From positions 1 to 54,401 of the IMG/VR virus record IMGVR_UViG_3300025327_001907: a DNA stretch of 54,401 nt. One strand, 5' to 3'. The notes under the pieces were generated by a model. It was not told where the DNA came from, made no database searches, and worked only from the letters and a program-made list of their open reading frames with translations. This DNA comes from a virus. Positions 2,328 through 16,144 of the stretch are shown here, piece by piece (position 1 is the stretch's first letter; the number at the start of each line of letters is the position of its first letter). The position numbers and the translations under genes were made by a program.

Positions 2328-2813
2328 CTAGTGCCCTTGCAAGACCAGCCGGCCGTAGGCAGCAATGGCCGTTGCATCGTAGAGATCCTGCGGTTCGTCG
2401 GTGGGAAGATCCGGGAAGGCTGTCAGTACCCACGCCTTGATGTCGTCTTTGTTCGCCTTCCCGGTACCGAGCAATGTTCTCTTCCAGACCATGTTGTCCA
2501 CGATCGAGTGTTTGATCCCGAACCGGACGAAGGCACTCAGGTAGACACCAAGGACGATGACCTGGAGATCGTGGGAAGTGACGTTTGCCTTCCCGCCGAA
2601 GCGCTGGAGAGTTGGCTTTTCGATGTAGACCCAATCGACATCCGCGTTGTCCGCGCACCACTTTTCGACTGCCTCTACAAGCAGTGGTAGGCGGGCCTCG
2701 GCCGTCTTGCCCTTGGCCCGTATCTGCAACGTGCCAGGACGTTCCGCGGCCGACGTATCGATCAGTGCGACGTTCAGCGCCTTGGTATCCGGGTCGCATC
2801 CAACTACGCGCAT
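2328..2813 (-). CDS. RuvC-like Holliday junction resolvase
   Basis: A 161-aa protein with an RNase H/RuvC-type layout: first acidic strand VVGCDPDTKALNVALID (Asp7), YIEKP with a conserved Glu near residue 69, and the C-terminal DLYDATAIAAYG with the paired acidic residues near 140-145. Length matches phage RuvC-like resolvases. It would resolve recombination or replication junctions before packaging, in keeping with the neighbouring SbcCD and RecA-like genes. The start is preceded by a G-rich ribosome site (GGGGGCGAGG) just downstream of a small hairpin. Confidence 0.75.
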   Translation of the reverse strand: MRVVGCDPDTKALNVALIDTSAAERPGTLQIRAKGKTAEARLPLLVEAVEKWCADNADVDWVYIEKPTLQRFGGKANVTSHDLQVIVLGVYLSAFVRFGIKHSIVDNMVWKRTLLGTGKANKDDIKAWVLTAFPDLPTDEPQDLYDATAIAAYGRLVLQGH

Positions 2814-2826
2814 CGGCCTCGCCCCC

Positions 2827-2874
2827 TTCGGCTGCTTCAGCCGAAATTATAGCGAGGGCACGAAAATTATTGTG
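2827..2874 (-). promoter_or_regulatory. promoter-like elements plus leader hairpin upstream of the RuvC-like gene
   Basis: On the minus strand a CACAAT hexamer is followed after 17 bases by a perfect TATAAT (plus-strand attata at 2846-2851). A perfect 8-bp hairpin comes next (TTCGGCTG/CAGCCGAA, 2827-2834 and 2838-2845, 3-base loop), sitting just before the ribosome site of the resolvase. The -35 is a poor match to TTGACA, so promoter activity is an inference. The hairpin could also modulate translation. Confidence 0.4.
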
Positions 2875-3547
2875 AGGGCGCCCGAAGCGTGCGCACGCGT
2901 GTCGTGGAGACCTTGGCTCCCTCCACCAGCTCAAACTGGTAGGCGGCATCCGCAACCTCCACGAATTCGCGTTCATGTGTAATCAGAATCAACTGGAACT
3001 TGAGACGAGTGGTTAAGACCCCAACCAGCTCCGCAACCGGGCGCCGGAACTCGGGGCTGACCTGCGCAAAGGGCTCATCAAGGACAAGGAGCCGGCGGAG
3101 GGCCGGCCGGGCGGCCATAATGAGCAGTACCCGCACGAGGAAGGCCGTGACGACGGCGTACCCACCTCCCTGGGCACCTTCGATGCCGGTCTCCAACTCT
3201 CCCCGGCGCATGCGGAATTCCAGTGCCGTAAGGTCACCCTTAGTCTTGGACTCAAGCCGGATCTCGATACGTTCCCCGAATACGGTGGATAAGCCGTCGG
3301 AAACAACGGTCTCCAATGCCTCCTCAAACGTCCGCTGCCAGGCCCGTTCCATGCCCTGGAGGATCTGGAGCACCTCCTCCAGTATCTCGGCATCGGTTGA
3401 GGCCGCGGCTGCACGTTCGGCAGCGGCGCGAAGGTTCTCGGCCACGGTTGAACGTGCCCCTTCAACACGCGCGATGTCGTTCGCGAGAAGGTTTGAATGA
3501 CGTGCCAGTCCAGCGGCGGTGCTCTCGATCTCGGCGAGTTTGCTCAC
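2867..3547 (-). CDS. SbcC/Rad50-like ATPase, C-terminal half (split gene)
   Basis: A 226-aa protein. It begins with about 100 residues of coiled coil, then shows the C-terminal half of an SMC/Rad50 ATPase: a signature-like GAQGGGYAVVTAFLVRVLL, then Walker B and D-loop LLVLDEPFAQVSPE, then the H-loop region LILITHERE. There is no Walker A; that lies in the separate gene at 4783-5724. GTG start, overlapping the TGA of the upstream coiled-coil gene (GTGA). It should pair with the N-half and the SbcD-like nuclease to process DNA ends. Reading it as a T4 gp46-type subunit is family knowledge; the split is read from the sequence. Confidence 0.8.
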   Translation of the reverse strand: MSKLAEIESTAAGLARHSNLLANDIARVEGARSTVAENLRAAAERAAAASTDAEILEEVLQILQGMERAWQRTFEEALETVVSDGLSTVFGERIEIRLESKTKGDLTALEFRMRRGELETGIEGAQGGGYAVVTAFLVRVLLIMAARPALRRLLVLDEPFAQVSPEFRRPVAELVGVLTTRLKFQLILITHEREFVEVADAAYQFELVEGAKVSTTRVRTLRAPSQ

Positions 3548-3819
3548 GACGCGGCTCCCCGGAGTACGTGACTCACCCGGTCGAGACTGGTCTGAATCTT
3601 CGTTAGCTTCTTGCGCGCTTCGTCCACAAGAGCGTCGATCTGGGCGTCGAGATCCTTGTCCGAGTCAATGCCGGCGTCTCGCAGTTCTTGTTCAACCTGG
3701 GCCATTGTCTTCTGAGCATCACTGACACGTGCATCCGCAGCGGCGGCAGCCTGTCGAGCGGAATCGAGGTCGGCGCGCAGCTCCAGCGCACGCTCAACGG
3801 CGGACTGTTGTTTCGGCAT
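3544..3819 (-). CDS. small coiled-coil protein between SbcD and the SbcC C-half
   Basis: A 91-aa, Ala/Asp/Gln-rich, almost entirely helical protein with heptad-like hydrophobic spacing. It has a good ribosome site (AGGAG, 7 bases before the ATG), overlaps the end of the SbcD-like gene by 26 bases, and is coupled to the downstream ATPase half by a GTGA overlap. Its position suggests it supplies part of the Rad50 coiled-coil arm or a bridging subunit of the split complex. That is inference; the protein itself has no catalytic motif. Confidence 0.65.
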   Translation of the reverse strand: MPKQQSAVERALELRADLDSARQAAAAADARVSDAQKTMAQVEQELRDAGIDSDKDLDAQIDALVDEARKKLTKIQTSLDRVSHVLRGAAS

Positions 3820-4783
3820 GGTCGTTCTCCTGCAAATAGCGTCGAAGGCGCTGGACGACTTCCGGTGATTTGCCCTTCGTCAGTGTGCTGATCAAATCGT
3901 CGAGCGGAGTCTCGTCAACTTCAAGTGGCAACATGAGGGCATCGGCGAAACCTTCAATTCCCAAGCCCTCTATTTCTTCGGGGCTCTCCTGAAAGACCTC
4001 GGATGGGGGGAGAGCCGTTGTAAGCCGCCGGATCTCGAAATCGATCTGTCCCTTCTCCAGAGAAACCAACAACACGGCCGGTCGTCTGTTGAGACTGCTC
4101 GGACTCGCGTCCACGCGTGCAAGAGAGCCCACATTGGCGAACCAGCAGCCACTCGGAAGTTCATGCACTCCCAGCTCGTCGTGAATATGCGCGCCGTGCA
4201 ATACGTCTATGCAGTCTGTCTGCAAGTTCGAGACTTTGTGATGTGCGTAGATCGGATCGTGGCCTTTCGGAAAAATGGCGGCATGCGCAATCATAATTGT
4301 GTACGTGGCGAGCCGCGTCATCTCGCGCTCTTTCGGTGTGAGATCGAGCGCTGTGGGGACGTGATCGATGTACGGTTCCCAGTTTCGCGGCACAAGTAGA
4401 GCCGACTCACCGGCGAACGGCCCCACGACCAACGGCTCCGAGAGCCAGTGGAACGCGCCCGCTTCCGCCAGCACTCCAAAGGGCATGCGGCCAATCGAGC
4501 CGACGCCTTCGTAGGACAGATCGTGGTTACCGGCGATGGCGTAGACCGGACACGGAGCCTCTTTGAATAAGCCAAGAAGCTGAATCAATGTCCGATAGGC
4601 AACAATCCAGCCCCGAAACTTGTGAAAAAGATCGCCGCTGATCAAGATGAAATCGCACTGCGACGCGCGCGCGATGTCCCAGCATTCGTAGAGTTTCGCC
4701 ATGATCTGCTGACCATACTCAGGTGTTCGGCTGGCCGGTGGCGTATCCGAAACATGACAGTCGTTTACGACGAGATATCTCAT
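3794..4783 (-). CDS. SbcD/Mre11-like nuclease
   Basis: A 329-aa calcineurin-type phosphoesterase. Motifs in order: VNDCHVSD (DxH type), SGDLFHK, GNHDLS, IAHAAI and GAHIHDE, the five metal-binding motifs of the Mre11/SbcD/T4 gp47 family. The start chosen is ATG at 4783 because it overlaps the TGA of the upstream SbcC N-half gene (ATGA) and places the first conserved strand (MRYLVVND) at the N-terminus; an in-frame start 33 bases upstream adds residues unlike the family. It should act with the split SbcC on DNA ends and hairpins. Confidence 0.85.
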   Translation of the reverse strand: MRYLVVNDCHVSDTPPASRTPEYGQQIMAKLYECWDIARASQCDFILISGDLFHKFRGWIVAYRTLIQLLGLFKEAPCPVYAIAGNHDLSYEGVGSIGRMPFGVLAEAGAFHWLSEPLVVGPFAGESALLVPRNWEPYIDHVPTALDLTPKEREMTRLATYTIMIAHAAIFPKGHDPIYAHHKVSNLQTDCIDVLHGAHIHDELGVHELPSGCWFANVGSLARVDASPSSLNRRPAVLLVSLEKGQIDFEIRRLTTALPPSEVFQESPEEIEGLGIEGFADALMLPLEVDETPLDDLISTLTKGKSPEVVQRLRRYLQENDHAETTVRR

Positions 4784-5724
4784 CACGCCCGCTCCAGCTT
4801 GCCGCTGCCGCCGCACATGGGACAGGCACCGATGGACTCTACGAACGTGTCGTAGGCATTGGTCGCGGCCGAAACAGCCTCACGCGCCGCCTCGGATTCT
4901 GCCTGTGCTACGTCTAGCAGAGCCGATGCGCGGCGATAGTTCCTGATCTTGGCGGTCACCGCTTCCGCGCGTTCAACAGCCGCGGCGGCCGCGTTCAACG
5001 CCTTTTCCGATGGCACCTCAAGCTCGGCGAGGCGTTTCGCCACGGTCAACTTGTCAGTCAACGCGTCGATCGTCTGCACTTGGTCGATGAGGGCGTTCAC
5101 CGTGGTCATCGCCGGCGCCACTCCCGCCATTGCGTCTGCGAGTTCATCCGGGTCTGGAAACGTCTCAAGTTGTTCCTTGAGTCGATCTCCCTCTTCCTGA
5201 TCCGCCTGCGCCCGACGTTCGGCGCGCGTGCGGTCGCGGCGACATTCAACCTGGGCCTCGACGATGAGCTGGAGCTTCGTCAAACGGCCCAGTGCGCGAG
5301 CGACCATCGTTTGGGATTCCATGAGTAGGAGCGGCAGGTCGTGTTGATCCTGAAACTGAGGGCGAAGAGTGAGGTCTTTGTCAATGTCGATACGACGGAC
5401 AGCCAACGCCTCCGCCACCTCATCGGGTACGGCGCGTCCGGTGCGTGTGAACAGCTTTCCATCGAGTGTGTAGGTGGCACCCTTGTCGCGATGCTTTTCC
5501 CAGACCAGCTCGCGTCCGCCGTCAAACGCGAGAGTCACAGTCGCCTTCTGTTTCCCGAACCGGATGAAGTCTTCACCGACCTGGCCGAACAACGCTGCGG
5601 CAAGCGCCCGGCGCAAGGCGGATTTTCCGCGCCCTGACGGCCCTACGATGACAGTCAGGCGGCCGAAGGCGAGATGGGCCTCCTCGATGGACTGGTAGTT
5701 CGTGATCTCAACAGACTCAAGCAT
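4783..5724 (-). CDS. SbcC/Rad50-like ATPase, N-terminal half ending at a zinc-hook CxxC (split gene)
   Basis: A 313-aa protein that starts MLESVEITNYQSI and has Walker A VGPSGRGKSAL near residue 30, a Q-loop-like segment (PQFQDQHDLPLLL), then a long coiled coil. It ends with CPMCGGSGKLERA, a CxxC like the Rad50 zinc hook, and stops there. The ascending half of the ATPase is thus complete up to the hook, while the returning half is encoded at 2867-3547. The ATG at 5724 is used rather than the upstream in-frame start because it matches the family N-terminus and overlaps the end of the previous gene by 8 bases. Confidence 0.82.
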   Translation of the reverse strand: MLESVEITNYQSIEEAHLAFGRLTVIVGPSGRGKSALRRALAAALFGQVGEDFIRFGKQKATVTLAFDGGRELVWEKHRDKGATYTLDGKLFTRTGRAVPDEVAEALAVRRIDIDKDLTLRPQFQDQHDLPLLLMESQTMVARALGRLTKLQLIVEAQVECRRDRTRAERRAQADQEEGDRLKEQLETFPDPDELADAMAGVAPAMTTVNALIDQVQTIDALTDKLTVAKRLAELEVPSEKALNAAAAAVERAEAVTAKIRNYRRASALLDVAQAESEAAREAVSAATNAYDTFVESIGACPMCGGSGKLERA

Positions 5725-6314: not shown

Positions 6315-7166
6315 TCAGCCGCGGCGGCCGCGGCTGAGCGCGCCGGCCGCGAGGGCAAGAGCAGAGACGACAAACAAGAAGCCGACGATCGACAACAGGA
6401 ACACAACGTCCCGGCCCACGGATCGCGGGTTCGGCCCGTCACCCGTATCCGGCAGATCGATCACCACTGCCGGTGGCTGGTCTTCAGTCGGCTCCGGCGC
6501 CGGTGTATCCGTTGGCTCCTGCGTCACACATGCCAGCACGTCGGTGCAAGGGATATCGGTCGGCGTCGCCGTGTTGGTCGGAGTCCGGGTCGGCCGAGGT
6601 GTGTCCGTTGCCGTCGGAGTCGGAGTCGGAGTCGAAGTCGAAGTCGAAGTCGAAGTCGAAGTCGAGGTCGCCGTGTTGGTCGCGGTTGGCGTATCCGTCG
6701 GCGTGAAGGTCGGAGTCGGCGTATCCGTGGGTGTCTCAGTCGGCGTTTCCGTCGGAGTGAACGTGAAAGTCGGAGTCGGCGTATTCGTAGCCGTGGGTGT
6801 CGCGCACAGGTTGCCGTTCGCAGCCGCCGATCCCTTCGCCCCGTTATCGTCGTCGAACCGGATGCGCCAGATATCGCCGGTCACATGACCACTTCTCGGG
6901 ACGACCACGATGGACGTGCCGGGCTCCAACAAGGTGATGTTCGTGTTGGGGACGAAGATGCTACTCCACGACCACTCCATGTCACCGTTGGGCTCATTGC
7001 CAAGCGTGACCTGGAAGCGGAACGTGTTAGCGTCCGTCGCACACAGCGCGGTGACCTGCGGGTTTGACCACGCGAAGGCCGGCGTTGCCGGCCGAGAGAC
7101 GGTCGCAAACAGCGCCGCTGCCGCGACTGCCAAGGCAATCACTGATCCGTAAATCCACTTCTTCAT
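6315..7166 (-). CDS. LPXTG cell-wall-anchored surface protein with Thr/Pro stalk
   Basis: A 283-aa protein with full Gram-positive wall-protein architecture. It has a signal peptide ([20 protein letters not shown], cleavage probably near AFA at 30-32), a small globular domain (33-120) with Cys42 and Cys121, a Thr/Pro/Ser-rich stalk (122-204), and a sorting signal LPDTG (238-242). A membrane segment (254-276) and a basic tail (SRGRRG) follow. A sortase would link it to the host wall or envelope during infection. Such a gene inside a phage DNA-metabolism operon, next to the RecA-like gene, is unusual. GGAGG lies 13 bases before the ATG, which overlaps the RecA-like stop. Superinfection exclusion, adhesion or host surface remodelling are possible roles; none is shown. 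Confidence 0.85.
6555..6803 (-). repeat. Thr/Pro and Ser/Thr coding repeat region
   Basis: Encodes the stalk of the LPXTG protein (residues 122-204), built of PTxTPT-type units and a run of Ser-Thr pairs. At the DNA level it contains a hexamer microsatellite (gtcgaa/gtcgga, about 6614-6670 on the plus strand) that keeps the reading frame when units are gained or lost, so stalk length could vary between isolates. Confidence 0.9.
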
Positions 7167-8320
7167 TCTGGTTCTTCTTCCTCCTGCTCTTCGTGGGTGG
7201 GTGATTCCTGCGCGGGGTCACTCACCCCGTTCAGATACTTTTCCTTGGCCGCGAGCGGCCAGAGCGTCTCACGGGCTGCGTCGAGAATCTTCTCGCGCAG
7301 GCCCAGCGTCTCATCGAGCACGGCGCCGAAGGTAGCCTCGGTGAACGACTTCTCCGAGTCGGGAAGGCGGTAGTACGACCCGCGCTTGATCAACATGCCG
7401 AGCTTGAGAGCGGTCTCGAAGTACGCGTAGTCGTTGTCGAATCCCGTGTCGAACAGACAGTGCGCCTCGAATGTCCCGAAGGGATGGGAGCACTTGTTCT
7501 TGACCACCTTGCCCTTGACCTTGACGCCATAGGTGATCACCTTGTCACCGGAGCCGCGCTTCAGCTCGCCGGCCTTGTACATATTGATGATCACGCTGGC
7601 GTAGAACTGGAGCGGGCGCTTGGCCACCATCGAGTCCTTCTCGTCGGTGTTGCCCATGCCGGCCCACGGCCCCATGTTCACGGCCTCGCTGTTCTGGTTG
7701 ATGATCACCAGACACACCTGGCTCTGTGCGATCTTCTTGCTGATGCGCCGGAGTGCTTGGCGCATCAGCGAAGCGTGGGCACCAGCACGCTGCGACTCAC
7801 CGAACTCGTTCTCCAGCGATGCCGCGGTGTCCGTGGCGGCCACGCTGTCCCAGACGATCGTGAGGAGTGTGTCGGGAGACTCCTCACGGGTCGCTTCGAT
7901 GATTTCTTCGATGAGCTTGATCGTGTCTTCAATGGTCTGCGGCTGTCTAACGATGAGACCGTCTGGGTCGTTCTCGTTAGTGTTGATACCCATCTTCTGG
8001 GAGCGGTATTCGTCGTAGGCGAACTCCGTGTCGAGGAGGACGGCCACCCCGCCGCGTTGCAGCGTCTCCTGACAGAGGTGCAGGCCGAGCGTGGACTTCG
8101 CTGCCTGCTCCCAGCCGCGGATGACTGTCAGACGACCAACGGGGGCACCGGGCATGCGCAGCGCGAGATCGATCGCGAGACAGCGCGTCGAGATGAAATC
8201 GTGTGGAGCGCCAAGGATATCCGCCGGCACAGCTCCTTCAATCTTCGCGATGATCGAGTCTCGAAGAGAAGACGCTTGCGTTGGTGTTTTTGTGGTCGTC
8301 GTCTTGCGAGTGCGGGGCAC
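7163..8320 (-). CDS. RecA/UvsX-like recombinase with atypical Walker A
   Basis: A 385-aa protein aligning by eye with the RecA core: [16 protein letters not shown] (62-77), LLDTEFAYD with the catalytic Glu at 99, Walker [13 protein letters not shown] (Asp158), and a loop region ending in [11 protein letters not shown]. The P-loop Gly before the Lys is Ala (GWEQAAKS instead of GxxxxGKT), which is unusual. The C-terminal tail is strongly acidic, as in many RecA proteins. It would catalyse strand exchange with the ssDNA-binding and UvsY-like proteins encoded just upstream. The stop overlaps the ATG of the LPXTG gene. Confidence 0.88.
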
Positions 8321-8323
8321 GGG

Positions 8324-9283
8324 TTAGTCCAGACTCCTCACACGGCCGCGGAGCCGGCTGTTGCCGGAAGTCGCGGGCGCCTGATGCTCGGTGGTTTCCG
8401 CCGCACGACGGCGCGGCGTCGGTGCGGGATCGGGGGCATCCACCGGATCTGGTGGGGCCGCCCGGCGCCCCCGGGCGGGTGGCGGAGAAGCTGTGGGCTC
8501 CTCGCTGTTCCCTGGGTCTTCCGGGTCATCCTCGGATTCCTGCGTGGGCTGTCGCGGCGCCGGTTCGCGCCGCTCGGTCGTCTGCCGTGCGGCCGGGGCG
8601 GATGTGCCGTTGTAGATGGCCTCCATCTCGGCGTCGGACTTGAACTCCTGAACCCTCGATAGATCGGGCAGCTCGAAGGTCTCGTTGGCGATTTCCTGGT
8701 AAAGGGCGGCCACGCTGTCGCTCGGGTGGTTGAGCAACTTGGACGACGGGAACTTGCTGTTCTGGCGTGCGGGTTGCACGTCGTATTTCGTCGTCTGTCC
8801 CTGCCCTTCCTTGATCACGATGAGGTCGTAGCCGTCGTTCAGACTGCTCATGTCGCCGTATTCGTCCTCGTTCAAGTAAAGGCGCTTGATCACCTTGAAG
8901 CACTGCGTCGGCGGGCAGCGCCAGACCTGAACGCCATCCTCGGGGTGGTTGACATCGACGATGTTGATCAGGTAGCCGACACGAACGGAGATGGTGTCGC
9001 CTTCCTCCGCGTCCTCCGGCGCCTGGCTCTTCTTGAGGCGCTTCGCCAGACGGCAGAGGAAGCAGGAGTCGCGGACGCCGGATTCTTCGGGACAGGCCAC
9101 GGGCGCCTCGTCAGGGCCGACGCCGAAGTGCGTGCCCGTGCGGTACCAGAATCTGTCCGCTTCGGGTGAGTACGGTGGCATCACGCGGAGGCGGTTCTCG
9201 CCGTCGGCTGCCTTCCAGAAATCGCTGCCGGAGCCGACCTTCTCCTGCTGCATGGTGTCGCGATTGGTCTTCCCGTAAGGCAT
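8324..9283 (-). CDS. gp32-like single-stranded DNA-binding protein
   Basis: A 319-aa protein. The N-terminal core contains the phage SSB features FWKAADGENRLRVMPP, a Cys-rich zinc segment (CPEES..DSCFLCRLAKRLKK), then strands typical of T4 gp32-like proteins. The C-terminal third is disordered: acidic and Pro-rich with a short basic end (RLRGRVRSLD), where gp32 proteins bind partners. The ATG at 9283 has a strong GAGGAGGGG ribosome site; the 13-residue upstream extension is rejected. It lies between the RecA-like and UvsY-like genes, the expected order of a recombination-dependent replication set. Confidence 0.75.
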   Translation of the reverse strand: MPYGKTNRDTMQQEKVGSGSDFWKAADGENRLRVMPPYSPEADRFWYRTGTHFGVGPDEAPVACPEESGVRDSCFLCRLAKRLKKSQAPEDAEEGDTISVRVGYLINIVDVNHPEDGVQVWRCPPTQCFKVIKRLYLNEDEYGDMSSLNDGYDLIVIKEGQGQTTKYDVQPARQNSKFPSSKLLNHPSDSVAALYQEIANETFELPDLSRVQEFKSDAEMEAIYNGTSAPAARQTTERREPAPRQPTQESEDDPEDPGNSEEPTASPPPARGRRAAPPDPVDAPDPAPTPRRRAAETTEHQAPATSGNSRLRGRVRSLD

Positions 9284-9296
9284 CGAACCCCTCCTC

Positions 9297-9313
9297 GCGG
9301 GACGATCGCCCGC
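9297..9313 (-). promoter_or_regulatory. 17-bp near-palindrome in the SSB gene leader
   Basis: GCGGG and CCCGC arms surround CGATCG immediately upstream of the ribosome site of the ssDNA-binding protein gene. It could form a hairpin or bind a protein. Autoregulation of the SSB by leader binding is known for T4 gp32; applying it here is speculation. Confidence 0.3.
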
Positions 9314-9357
9314 GCTTCTCACTCAAAATCTAGGGAGGTGCGAGAAATAAAACAAGC

Positions 9358-13841: not shown

Positions 13842-14477
13842 TCAGCCTCCCGATGGGTGAGCCTTGGGCAAGACAGTGCCGCCCTTGTTCTGAAACTCCG
13901 AGGCCAGCCGTGTCAGGTGATACTCAAAGTATTTGATCTCGACGGGCTCCCCCGCGCCCCGGTGCTGGAACCACCAGGCCGCGATCTGTTTCAAGCTCTC
14001 CAGTGTGTACGCACGTAACATTCGATCCACGAAGAACGTATCGCGCGTCTTTCCGCGGCTGGGGCGCGGGTAGGTGATGTCGGTGTAGCGGTCGCAGAGT
14101 TCACACCAGTGATTGACGAACTCCCAGACCGACTTCCACGGACTCACGGGGATAGCCTTGCGGGCCGGTGCCGGCGTACCCTCAACCACCTCGGGGACAA
14201 CACCCAGCGAGAGATGCGGAGGATCGTCCTCAACATCGAATGTCGCGAAGCCCCGATCCACAAGTTCAAGGATGCTCTTGCGGAACCGGGCCTTGGACAT
14301 ACCGAAGAAGTGGATGAGAGATTCGGCATCGACGTGGACGCCGGAGAAGTCATTACCCGTCAGCCCTTCGTAAAGGGCGCCCGCCTCAGGAGATAGGGCC
14401 AGCTTCCAATAGGACTCCCACTGCGGCGGCAGGGGCACGAGCGGCTGGTCATGCGTAACTAAGAACGATGCCCCCAC
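13842..14477 (-). CDS. winged-helix replication-module protein
   Basis: A 211-aa protein. Residues 28-80 (LSPEAGALYEGLTGNDF..VDAESLIHFFGMSKARFRKSILELVDRGF) form a winged-helix DNA-binding pattern. A second helical domain follows a basic stretch (YPRPSRGKTRDTFF). GTG start at 14477 with GAGGG just upstream; it overlaps the helicase gene end by 19 bases. Lying between two helicase genes, it could be a replication initiator or helicase loader, but no loader motif is seen. Confidence 0.55.
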   Translation of the reverse strand: MGASFLVTHDQPLVPLPPQWESYWKLALSPEAGALYEGLTGNDFSGVHVDAESLIHFFGMSKARFRKSILELVDRGFATFDVEDDPPHLSLGVVPEVVEGTPAPARKAIPVSPWKSVWEFVNHWCELCDRYTDITYPRPSRGKTRDTFFVDRMLRAYTLESLKQIAAWWFQHRGAGEPVEIKYFEYHLTRLASEFQNKGGTVLPKAHPSGG

Positions 14478-16144
14478 GTTTCCCTCGCTTGCGGCGTGCG
14501 CAAATCTCCCGCGGCCAGTCTAGCTCGCAATTCCGAAACGGGCAAAATATTGCAGGAATACCCGGCTTTCCGAACAGCCTCCCGGCGTTCCTCACTGTGG
14601 TCGAGGAGCTTGAGTGAATGGCTGTCATTGAAGTCGAACGTCGGGAGATAGTCCTTCCCCTCGGAGAGCCGGAGGCCCCGTCCGATCCGCTGAATCTGCT
14701 TGTGGTGGGCGCGCATGCCACCCGCGAGGATGAGCGCGCCGATCTCCGGCACATCCACGCCCTCGTCAAGCCAGGTCGTGCCGATCAACACATCAATCTT
14801 GCCGCGGGCCAGCGCTCGAAGCAGAGTCTTGCGTTCATCCGTGCCTGTGCCGCTGCCAGGCACGAATTCAGCTTCCAGCCCCGCCTGACGTAGGTTCCGT
14901 TCCAACCATCGGCCCTGCTCGATACGTTGAAGCAGGATGAGTGTCGGCGCCTTCCATTTGCCCGCCACGGTTGCGGCAATCTCAACGATCAGCCGGTTCC
15001 GGCCCTCGTGCCGGACGATGCCCTCATCGTAGGCCCACTTGAACGAGAAATCCTCAGAGAACGGGGGGAACTCCGCATCGATAAAGACCACGTACGGGCG
15101 AGTTAGGTAACCCTCTTCAATGGCGGCGGTGGCGGAAAATGAGAAGATGATCTCACCCGTCGCCCCGACCACTTTCAGCTCTGTAGCCTTGTCCGACTTG
15201 AAGGCTGTGGCGGAATAGCCGTAACGTCTCGGGGCCGGGCAGGCGTTCACGACGGGCCACCACGTTTCGGCGGCGACTCGGTGGGTCTCATCAAGATGGA
15301 TGGCTTCGATCGTCGCGAGCCACGCCTCGACCGACTCCACGTCCGAGTAGTCCAGCAGGCCGTGACACTTGCGGGGCCGTGCCTGACTGTCGGCATAGGT
15401 TCGCCGGCAGTAGCGTTTGTCACGCTCTCCGGCCTCCCCGCAGGAAGAACAGGTGGGAGTCAATCGGCGGGCGAGCGTCTGGTAGAGCGCGGCCGTGATA
15501 AGTCCGCGCTGGTCAATATTGTCGCCCACGATGCCATAGAGAGGTTCTCTCGAATGTGGAAACGCGAGAGAGTCCTGGAACCGCTCAATAGTCTGATGGG
15601 CGAGATCGCGGGACGCCACCATGATGAGAGAACGAGCCGCGTCGCGGCGGATGACTTCTCCTAAAATGACTGTCTTGCCAGTACCAGTAGCGCTCTCAAA
15701 TACGCCGCGGCCGTGCTCGATGGCCCGGTTGACCGCTTCGACCTGGTAAGGACGTAGGTCTAGATCGGATGTGCCGCCAGCAAGTTGGGGCTCACCCTCA
15801 AGAGGAAGCGTTCGATCCTCATACTCCACCACGACCCCTTGACCGCGAAGATGGGCCACGGCCCGGTCGGCCAGCCCCCCAGGGAATGTGCCGTCGCGTT
15901 TGAGAAGACGGATGTAACCATCCCACTTCCCGGCCTTGTACAAGGGCATGAAATAGTAGCCCTCGACGCGATAGCGGAGGAGGCGGTTGACGGCCTCCCG
16001 AACGGGCTCCCAGCGGGTATGGAGCTTCGCATCCAGCTCGTTGCGGACAATGCGGGCTGTAGCGCCTTCGGGGATGATGACCGGAGCCTCGGCCTTGTGC
16101 TTCTTGCCGGGCCGCCAATAACGGTTTGGTGATTTTTTCGCCAT
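14459..16144 (-). CDS. SF2 DNA helicase, UvsW-like
   Basis: A 561-aa superfamily 2 helicase. The N-terminal domain (1-125) is like UvsW. Q-motif region LRPYQVEAVNRA, Walker A SATGTGKT (151-158), motif II LDETH (284-288), motif III YSATAF (310-315) and motif VI QRIGRGLRLSEG are all present. An insertion at 232-260 carries four Cys (CSSC, C246, C260) that could bind zinc. It would remodel recombination intermediates and forks with the RecA/SSB/UvsY set. A TAGAAT lies 9 bases before the ATG and no ribosome site is visible, so the mRNA may be leaderless or nearly so. Confidence 0.88.
   Translation of the reverse strand: MAKKSPNRYWRPGKKHKAEAPVIIPEGATARIVRNELDAKLHTRWEPVREAVNRLLRYRVEGYYFMPLYKAGKWDGYIRLLKRDGTFPGGLADRAVAHLRGQGVVVEYEDRTLPLEGEPQLAGGTSDLDLRPYQVEAVNRAIEHGRGVFESATGTGKTVILGEVIRRDAARSLIMVASRDLAHQTIERFQDSLAFPHSREPLYGIVGDNIDQRGLITAALYQTLARRLTPTCSSCGEAGERDKRYCRRTYADSQARPRKCHGLLDYSDVESVEAWLATIEAIHLDETHRVAAETWWPVVNACPAPRRYGYSATAFKSDKATELKVVGATGEIIFSFSATAAIEEGYLTRPYVVFIDAEFPPFSEDFSFKWAYDEGIVRHEGRNRLIVEIAATVAGKWKAPTLILLQRIEQGRWLERNLRQAGLEAEFVPGSGTGTDERKTLLRALARGKIDVLIGTTWLDEGVDVPEIGALILAGGMRAHHKQIQRIGRGLRLSEGKDYLPTFDFNDSHSLKLLDHSEERREAVRKAGYSCNILPVSELRARLAAGDLRTPQARETWGHRS

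Follow-up and report, generated by a model that had tools for sequence, protein, structure and literature searches.

To our knowledge, Rad50 in Mre11-Rad50 complexes has been treated as universally one-chain. A phage locus in which the two halves of SbcC/Rad50 are encoded by separate genes raises the question of whether this ATPase can exist as two chains cut at its zinc hook, and what kind of complex such chains would form. The window analysed here, a viral record of 54.4 kb, includes genes for portal and tape-measure proteins. On its minus strand, from position 5724 to 2867, it encodes in this order the SbcC/Rad50 N-half (N), an SbcD/Mre11-type nuclease (D), a small protein (S) and the SbcC/Rad50 C-half (C; Table 1). 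The earlier note placed the break in SbcC/Rad50 at the hook, with SbcD and a small coiled-coil gene separating the two parts. These four genes bear it out, and N carries both the Walker A motif and the terminal CPMC that the note assigned to this half. The coupling by overlaps that it described is likewise real, amounting to 1 nt between N and D (TGATG), 26 nt between D and S, and 4 nt between S and C (GTGA); N also overlaps the preceding gene by 8 nt.

Table 1. Features of the split SbcC/Rad50 locus and of neighbouring genes in the window
Feature	Position	Strand	Description or basis
RuvC	2328-2813		Window neighbour
SbcC/Rad50 C-half (C)	2867..3547	-	GTG start, 226 aa, without Walker A; phrog_15167; P. 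furiosus Rad50 C-lobe
H-loop His in C	2975..2977	-	99% in family
D-loop position in C	3056..3058	-	Ser for Asp (VSPE); alignment
Walker B LLVLDE in C	3074..3091	-	D and E 100% in family
Degenerate ABC signature QGGG in C	3161..3172	-	LSGG in Rad50, Ser replaced by Gly; alignment
Small conserved two-helix protein (S)	3544..3819	-	91 aa; AlphaFold2 helices, conservation
SbcD/Mre11-type nuclease (D)	3794..4783	-	329 aa; Metallophos, Mre11 matches, motifs
SbcC/Rad50 N-half (N)	4783..5724	-	313 aa; N-lobe, three-helix stalk, zinc hook at free C-terminus; AAA_23, phrog_16465
Zinc-hook motif CPMC in N	4813..4824	-	Residues 301-304; 9 residues, then stop
Walker A GPSGRGKS in N	5620..5643	-	Residues 28-35
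UvsX/RecA-like recombinase	7163-8320		Window neighbour
gp32-like ssDNA-binding protein (SSB)	8324-9322		Window neighbour
UvsW-like helicase	14459-16144		Window neighbour

The assignment of the four proteins rests on matches to known families. N is matched by AAA_23 (1e-9) and phrog_16465 (2e-27), C by phrog_15167 (2e-16), and D by Metallophos (3e-11) and a solved Mre11 (1e-8); all four nuclease motifs of D (DCH, GDLFH, GNHD and GAHIH) are intact. In a search of NCBIfam, including its SbcC/Rad50 cut-offs, no model scored above threshold for any of the four window proteins. Profiles of the two families matched the N-lobe of M. jannaschii Rad50 (N-half, 3e-18) and the C-lobe of P. furiosus Rad50 (C-half, 2e-15). 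The AlphaFold2 model of N (pLDDT 87, pTM 0.52) displays an ABC N-lobe, followed by three stalk helices (residues 151-188, 192-234 and 240-298) and the hook residues, and its head resembles those of Rad50 and SMC proteins in a structure match. Gly28, Gly33 and Lys34 of the Walker A motif and both hook cysteines are invariant in the N-half alignment (A5). The motif sets of the two halves are complementary, with Walker A and Q-loop in N, and Walker B and H-loop in C.

The C-half departs from Rad50 at two positions. The signature Ser and the D-loop Asp are the residues that a C-lobe presents to the ATP site of its partner. The earlier note had credited the C-half with signature, Walker B and D-loop in addition to the lack of Walker A; the presence of Walker B and the absence of Walker A hold, but the signature is degenerate and the D-loop has lost its Asp. 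Throughout the family the signature reads RGGG (QGGG in the window) where it aligns with LSGG of P. furiosus Rad50, and its Ser position is occupied by Gly in ~96% and by Ser in 3% of 157 C-halves; the D-loop Asp position is Ser in 92%. The D-loop Asp has been described as universally conserved, and D-loop mutants of P. furiosus show decreased ATP-induced association and increased hydrolysis (PMC7049730). Since both residues are replaced, normal ATP-driven head closure is not to be assumed. The locus thus combines a Rad50-type N-lobe with Walker A, a C-lobe with Walker B and H-loop, a terminal CxxC and a linked SbcD with intact motifs, as in Mre11-Rad50, with the loss of the signature Ser and the D-loop Asp; the canonical SbcC layout, in which N-lobe, two-way coil, hook and C-lobe share one chain, is absent.

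The split genes sit within a recombination module, together with the neighbours listed in Table 1. This module also includes a gene (6315-7166, minus strand), located between the upstream neighbour of N and the UvsX-like gene, whose product is of low complexity, is rich in Thr and Pro, and has a signal-like start together with a membrane-like segment at the C-terminus. A metallophosphoesterase-like gene at 201-2312 on the minus strand contains an apparent intein with a LAGLIDADG domain (LAGLIDADG_3; CMTPETPVL to QHN/T).

Single-sequence scans of viral contigs with P0001 and P0004 yielded no relatives; a profile built from three C-halves retrieved 136 from IMG/VR, and 80 of these viral loci were studied. 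For bacteria, the best 80 matches in a species-genome collection were taken, and among these matches all records are of Bacillota type. The same split is present in all of these viral and bacterial loci, 80 of each: every C-half is an open reading frame of its own, and none of the 160 has a Walker A motif. A CxxC within the last 50 residues is carried by all 55 complete viral N-halves (mostly CPxC, followed by a median of 9 residues) and by 74 of the 79 complete bacterial ones (129/134 overall); frameshifting or truncation seems to account for at least four of the five exceptions. In comparison, such a terminal CxxC occurs in 30 of 922 other large frames of the same loci (3%). SbcD accompanies the complete N-halves in 55/55 viral and 78/79 bacterial cases.

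Gene order varies among phages. The N-D-S-C order of the window recurs in Microcystis phage Mvi-JY20; in Bacillus phage vB_BboS-125 an AP2-domain gene separates N from S and C; and in two huge phages the parts are dispersed. The AP2-domain gene of vB_BboS-125 (L002:6398-6970) is perhaps derived from a homing element. In the same phage (MH884509, 22426-23235) an SbcD is encoded adjoining the split SbcC, where no gene is annotated.

In Bacillota the split genes form a chromosomal operon. Its order is D-N-S-C (D-N-C in 78 of the 80 loci), and it usually lies between recA and rny; both neighbours were recognized by motif within the fetched stretch in 60/80 loci, and were confirmed by Pfam in A. 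pseudofirmus OF4. Among 299 Bacillota genomes sampled evenly across the phylum, a strong C-half match (E < 1e-40) was obtained in 48 (~16%). The matching frames of 47 are open, standalone and 155-282 aa long, the sole exception being a fused protein in one genome (G051). One-chain SbcC (TIGR00618, E < 1e-30) was found in 116 of the 299 genomes, and only one of the 48 (G104) has both forms; its split copy shows a different gene order and may belong to a prophage. The two forms almost exclude each other (Fisher p 1.5e-10, a value that overstates independence as the genomes are related), and the split operon apparently replaces one-chain SbcCD in Bacillota, next to recA. A quickly built tree places the split C-lobes to one side of canonical SbcC (SH-aLRT 87). 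A single origin of the split C-lobes is likely but unproven, because this support is only 87% and the outgroup branches are long.

Known systems share parts of this architecture. SbcCD and Mre11-Rad50 (E. coli SbcCD, P. furiosus MR) have in common with it the SbcD/Mre11 nuclease, the Rad50 N- and C-lobes, the CxxC hook and the operon linkage. The differences are that Rad50 is here divided into two chains directly behind the hook, that S is added, that the C-side coil is short, and that Gly and Ser replace the signature Ser and the D-loop Asp, respectively. T4 gp46/gp47 is also a phage MR complex encoded in a recombination-replication module, and the distance from Walker A to hook in gp46 (CPTC at residue 288 of 560) is near that of the window; unlike the window protein, however, gp46 is one chain, and T4 46.1 and 46.2 are unrelated to S. 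The PHROG clusters phrog_16465 and phrog_15167 hold relatives of the N-half and the C-half as separate entries labelled exonuclease and ATPase, linked neither to each other nor to S and with no split recognized. In the structures 1f2t, 1ii8 and 3qkr the Rad50 N- and C-lobes form one head from two chains, but these are laboratory truncations and not natural genes. The Mre11/Rad50 fusion proteins of Yoshida et al. (2011) are unusual MR architectures as well; that paper reports fusions and no split, and the words 'split' and 'hook' are absent from it (PMC3175470). In the fusions of Anaerostipes and Bacillus phage 0305phi8-36 it describes, one P-loop segment is missing (PMC3175470), a feature paralleled by a D-N fusion among our relatives. 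We found no description of a split SbcC/Rad50 in open-access full text; an earlier mention elsewhere is possible.

The split Rad50 is a conserved Mre11-Rad50 variant in which the ABC motifs are altered and a small, uncharacterised subunit is added. We consider it probable that its genes encode a DNA end-processing complex of the Mre11-Rad50 (SbcCD) type with four subunits and with Rad50 as separate chains, for which we infer assembly in trans, the stoichiometry, dimerisation through zinc, the place and role of S, and the nuclease function. In such a complex, the N chain would provide the Walker A/Q-loop lobe, the stalk and the CxxC at its free end, and the C chain the signature/Walker B/H-loop lobe with a short base coil. 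Both would fold in trans into one ABC head seated on the SbcD nuclease, while two N chains could be joined by their CxxC motifs binding one zinc ion. S would be a dedicated extra subunit, packed on the stalk or in place of the missing part of the ascending arm. The phage complex would be expected to feed the recombination pathway of its neighbours (UvsX-like recombinase, gp32-like SSB, RuvC), and the Bacillota complex apparently stands in for SbcCD next to recA. Evenly balanced, in our judgement, is the further proposal that phages and Bacillota share a distinct Mre11-Rad50 branch, in which the lobes are separate, the hook is at the free end of a chain, and S is a new third structural subunit that either completes the arm or controls it. 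The altered signature and D-loop would then make ATP-driven head closure and hook-linked tethering unlike those of every studied MR complex.

A Rad50 cut naturally at the hook offers a direct test of whether heads, arms and hook need covalent joining for DNA tethering and ATP signalling, and is ready-made material for structural work. The split occurs in about one-sixth of the sampled Bacillota and in many phages, as an apparent SbcCD replacement; its recognition names the uncharacterised subunit S, and explains loose annotations as 'exonuclease', 'ATPase' or 'hypothetical' beside recA and in phages.

S was found in 79 of 80 bacterial and 57 of 76 viral loci, and 11 of 12 held-out candidates were recovered (E 1e-5 to 9e-18). 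Its AlphaFold2 model consists of two helices, residues 7-48 and 54-90, and its length is nearly fixed (median 84 aa). Searched against the PDB, S matched generic coiled coils only, and a comparison with T4 46.1 and 46.2 gave no match. In roughly twelve phage S proteins a single Cys marks the helix turn (for example FGCESL, YGCSNI); it is not conserved in bacteria.

The lengths of N, S and C bear on the arm. Judged against Rad50 C-lobe constructs, the coil preceding the lobe in the C-half comprises ~60 residues, and the length of the C-half varies little. By contrast, the stalk of the N-half ranges from ~130 to >300 residues (Walker A-to-hook span 258-482 aa), and is not correlated with the length of S (rho 0.03, p 0.72); BLAST detected no self-similarity within the N stalks. 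Because the C coil is short and the N stalk length uncoupled, the ascending half of the arm appears to be mostly missing, shortened or replaced by S. The earlier note had expected the split to create a two-chain arm, and supposed that DNA bridging might change with it. Separate chains cut at the hook are indeed present, but with a C coil of only ~60 residues and an N stalk that varies by >220 residues against near-constant S and C, the arm itself does not follow: had an ordinary arm simply been cut, its halves would have to be equal, and the bacterial lengths are unequal.

Within the proposed complex, two arrangements of the arm were weighed. A self-contained N stalk may fold back on itself, the ascending arm having been lost, with S acting as an independent regulator (a chaperone, a clamp or a head-binding subunit). 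We regard this as plausible, if somewhat short of probable: S is of fixed length and uncoupled from the stalk, the N stalk model contains helix breaks, and joint loss of arm, hook and S is exemplified by the G051 protein, whereas the pTM of the N-half model is only 0.52 and the lengths add up in phages with short stalks. In the second arrangement, S would be the distal and the C-half coil the proximal ascending segment, so that N, S and C rebuild an antiparallel Rad50 arm cut twice. In the short-stalk window, an N coil of ~150 aa faces 91 residues of S plus ~60 of the C-half coil (also ~150 aa), and a three-chain arm is thus possible there. In the phage and bacterial loci whose layout was inspected, the N, S and C genes follow one another as the corresponding domains do in one-chain SbcC, and N and S both have helices joined by short breaks. 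Yet N stalks differ by >220 aa while S stays unchanged, and bacteria pair an N stalk of ~300 aa with ~150 aa of S and C coil, which makes this arrangement rather unlikely overall.

Natural fusions connect the subunits further. In one relative (L083:4051-6174) SbcD is fused to the N-half in a protein of 707 aa with the hook 14 residues from its end, and S and C are separate genes downstream. The exceptional Bacillota genome (G051/L222:4652-6754) encodes a 700-aa D-N-C fusion without CxxC and with almost no coil, hence both armless and hookless. Nuclease and ATPase share one chain only in these two relatives (L083 and L222), and not in the window. As the G051 protein lies inside the split clade of the tree, its position suggests that it may have arisen by re-fusion. 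The D-N and D-N-C fusions support physical partnership of the subunits. The widely separated N and C genes of Tunturi_5 and Magritte might speak for N and C being two ATPases that work independently; given the complementary motif sets, the close operon linkage seen at most loci and the natural fusion carrying both lobes, we consider this very improbable.

An origin of the locus from faulty assembly or sequencing, or from decay of a one-chain SbcC into a pseudogene, can safely be dismissed, as the earlier note had anticipated for a frameshift: the only sign of it is that a handful of draft relatives (L106, L152 and L156) carry frameshifts, another gene lies between the halves, gene order varies, and the split recurs in 160 loci, among them the complete A. 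pseudofirmus OF4 chromosome, so that it is neither a frameshift nor an oddity of one phage.

Several phage loci show further peculiarities. Microbacterium phage Magritte (L003:4001-5053, L004:284-934) has split SbcC genes far apart and a hookless N-half that lacks the CxxC, an exception that counts against the proposed complex. In the 485-kb phage LR745208 (L013:1810-4893), genes that by eye resemble a PD-(D/E)XK nuclease and a sliding clamp lie interspersed among those for S, SbcD and the C-half. The long N stalks of two huge phages (L006:4980-6353 and L005:4977-6434) display, again by eye, L-x-VP helix breaks every ~44 residues, a pattern like that of repeated helical units, which BLAST self-comparison did not detect.
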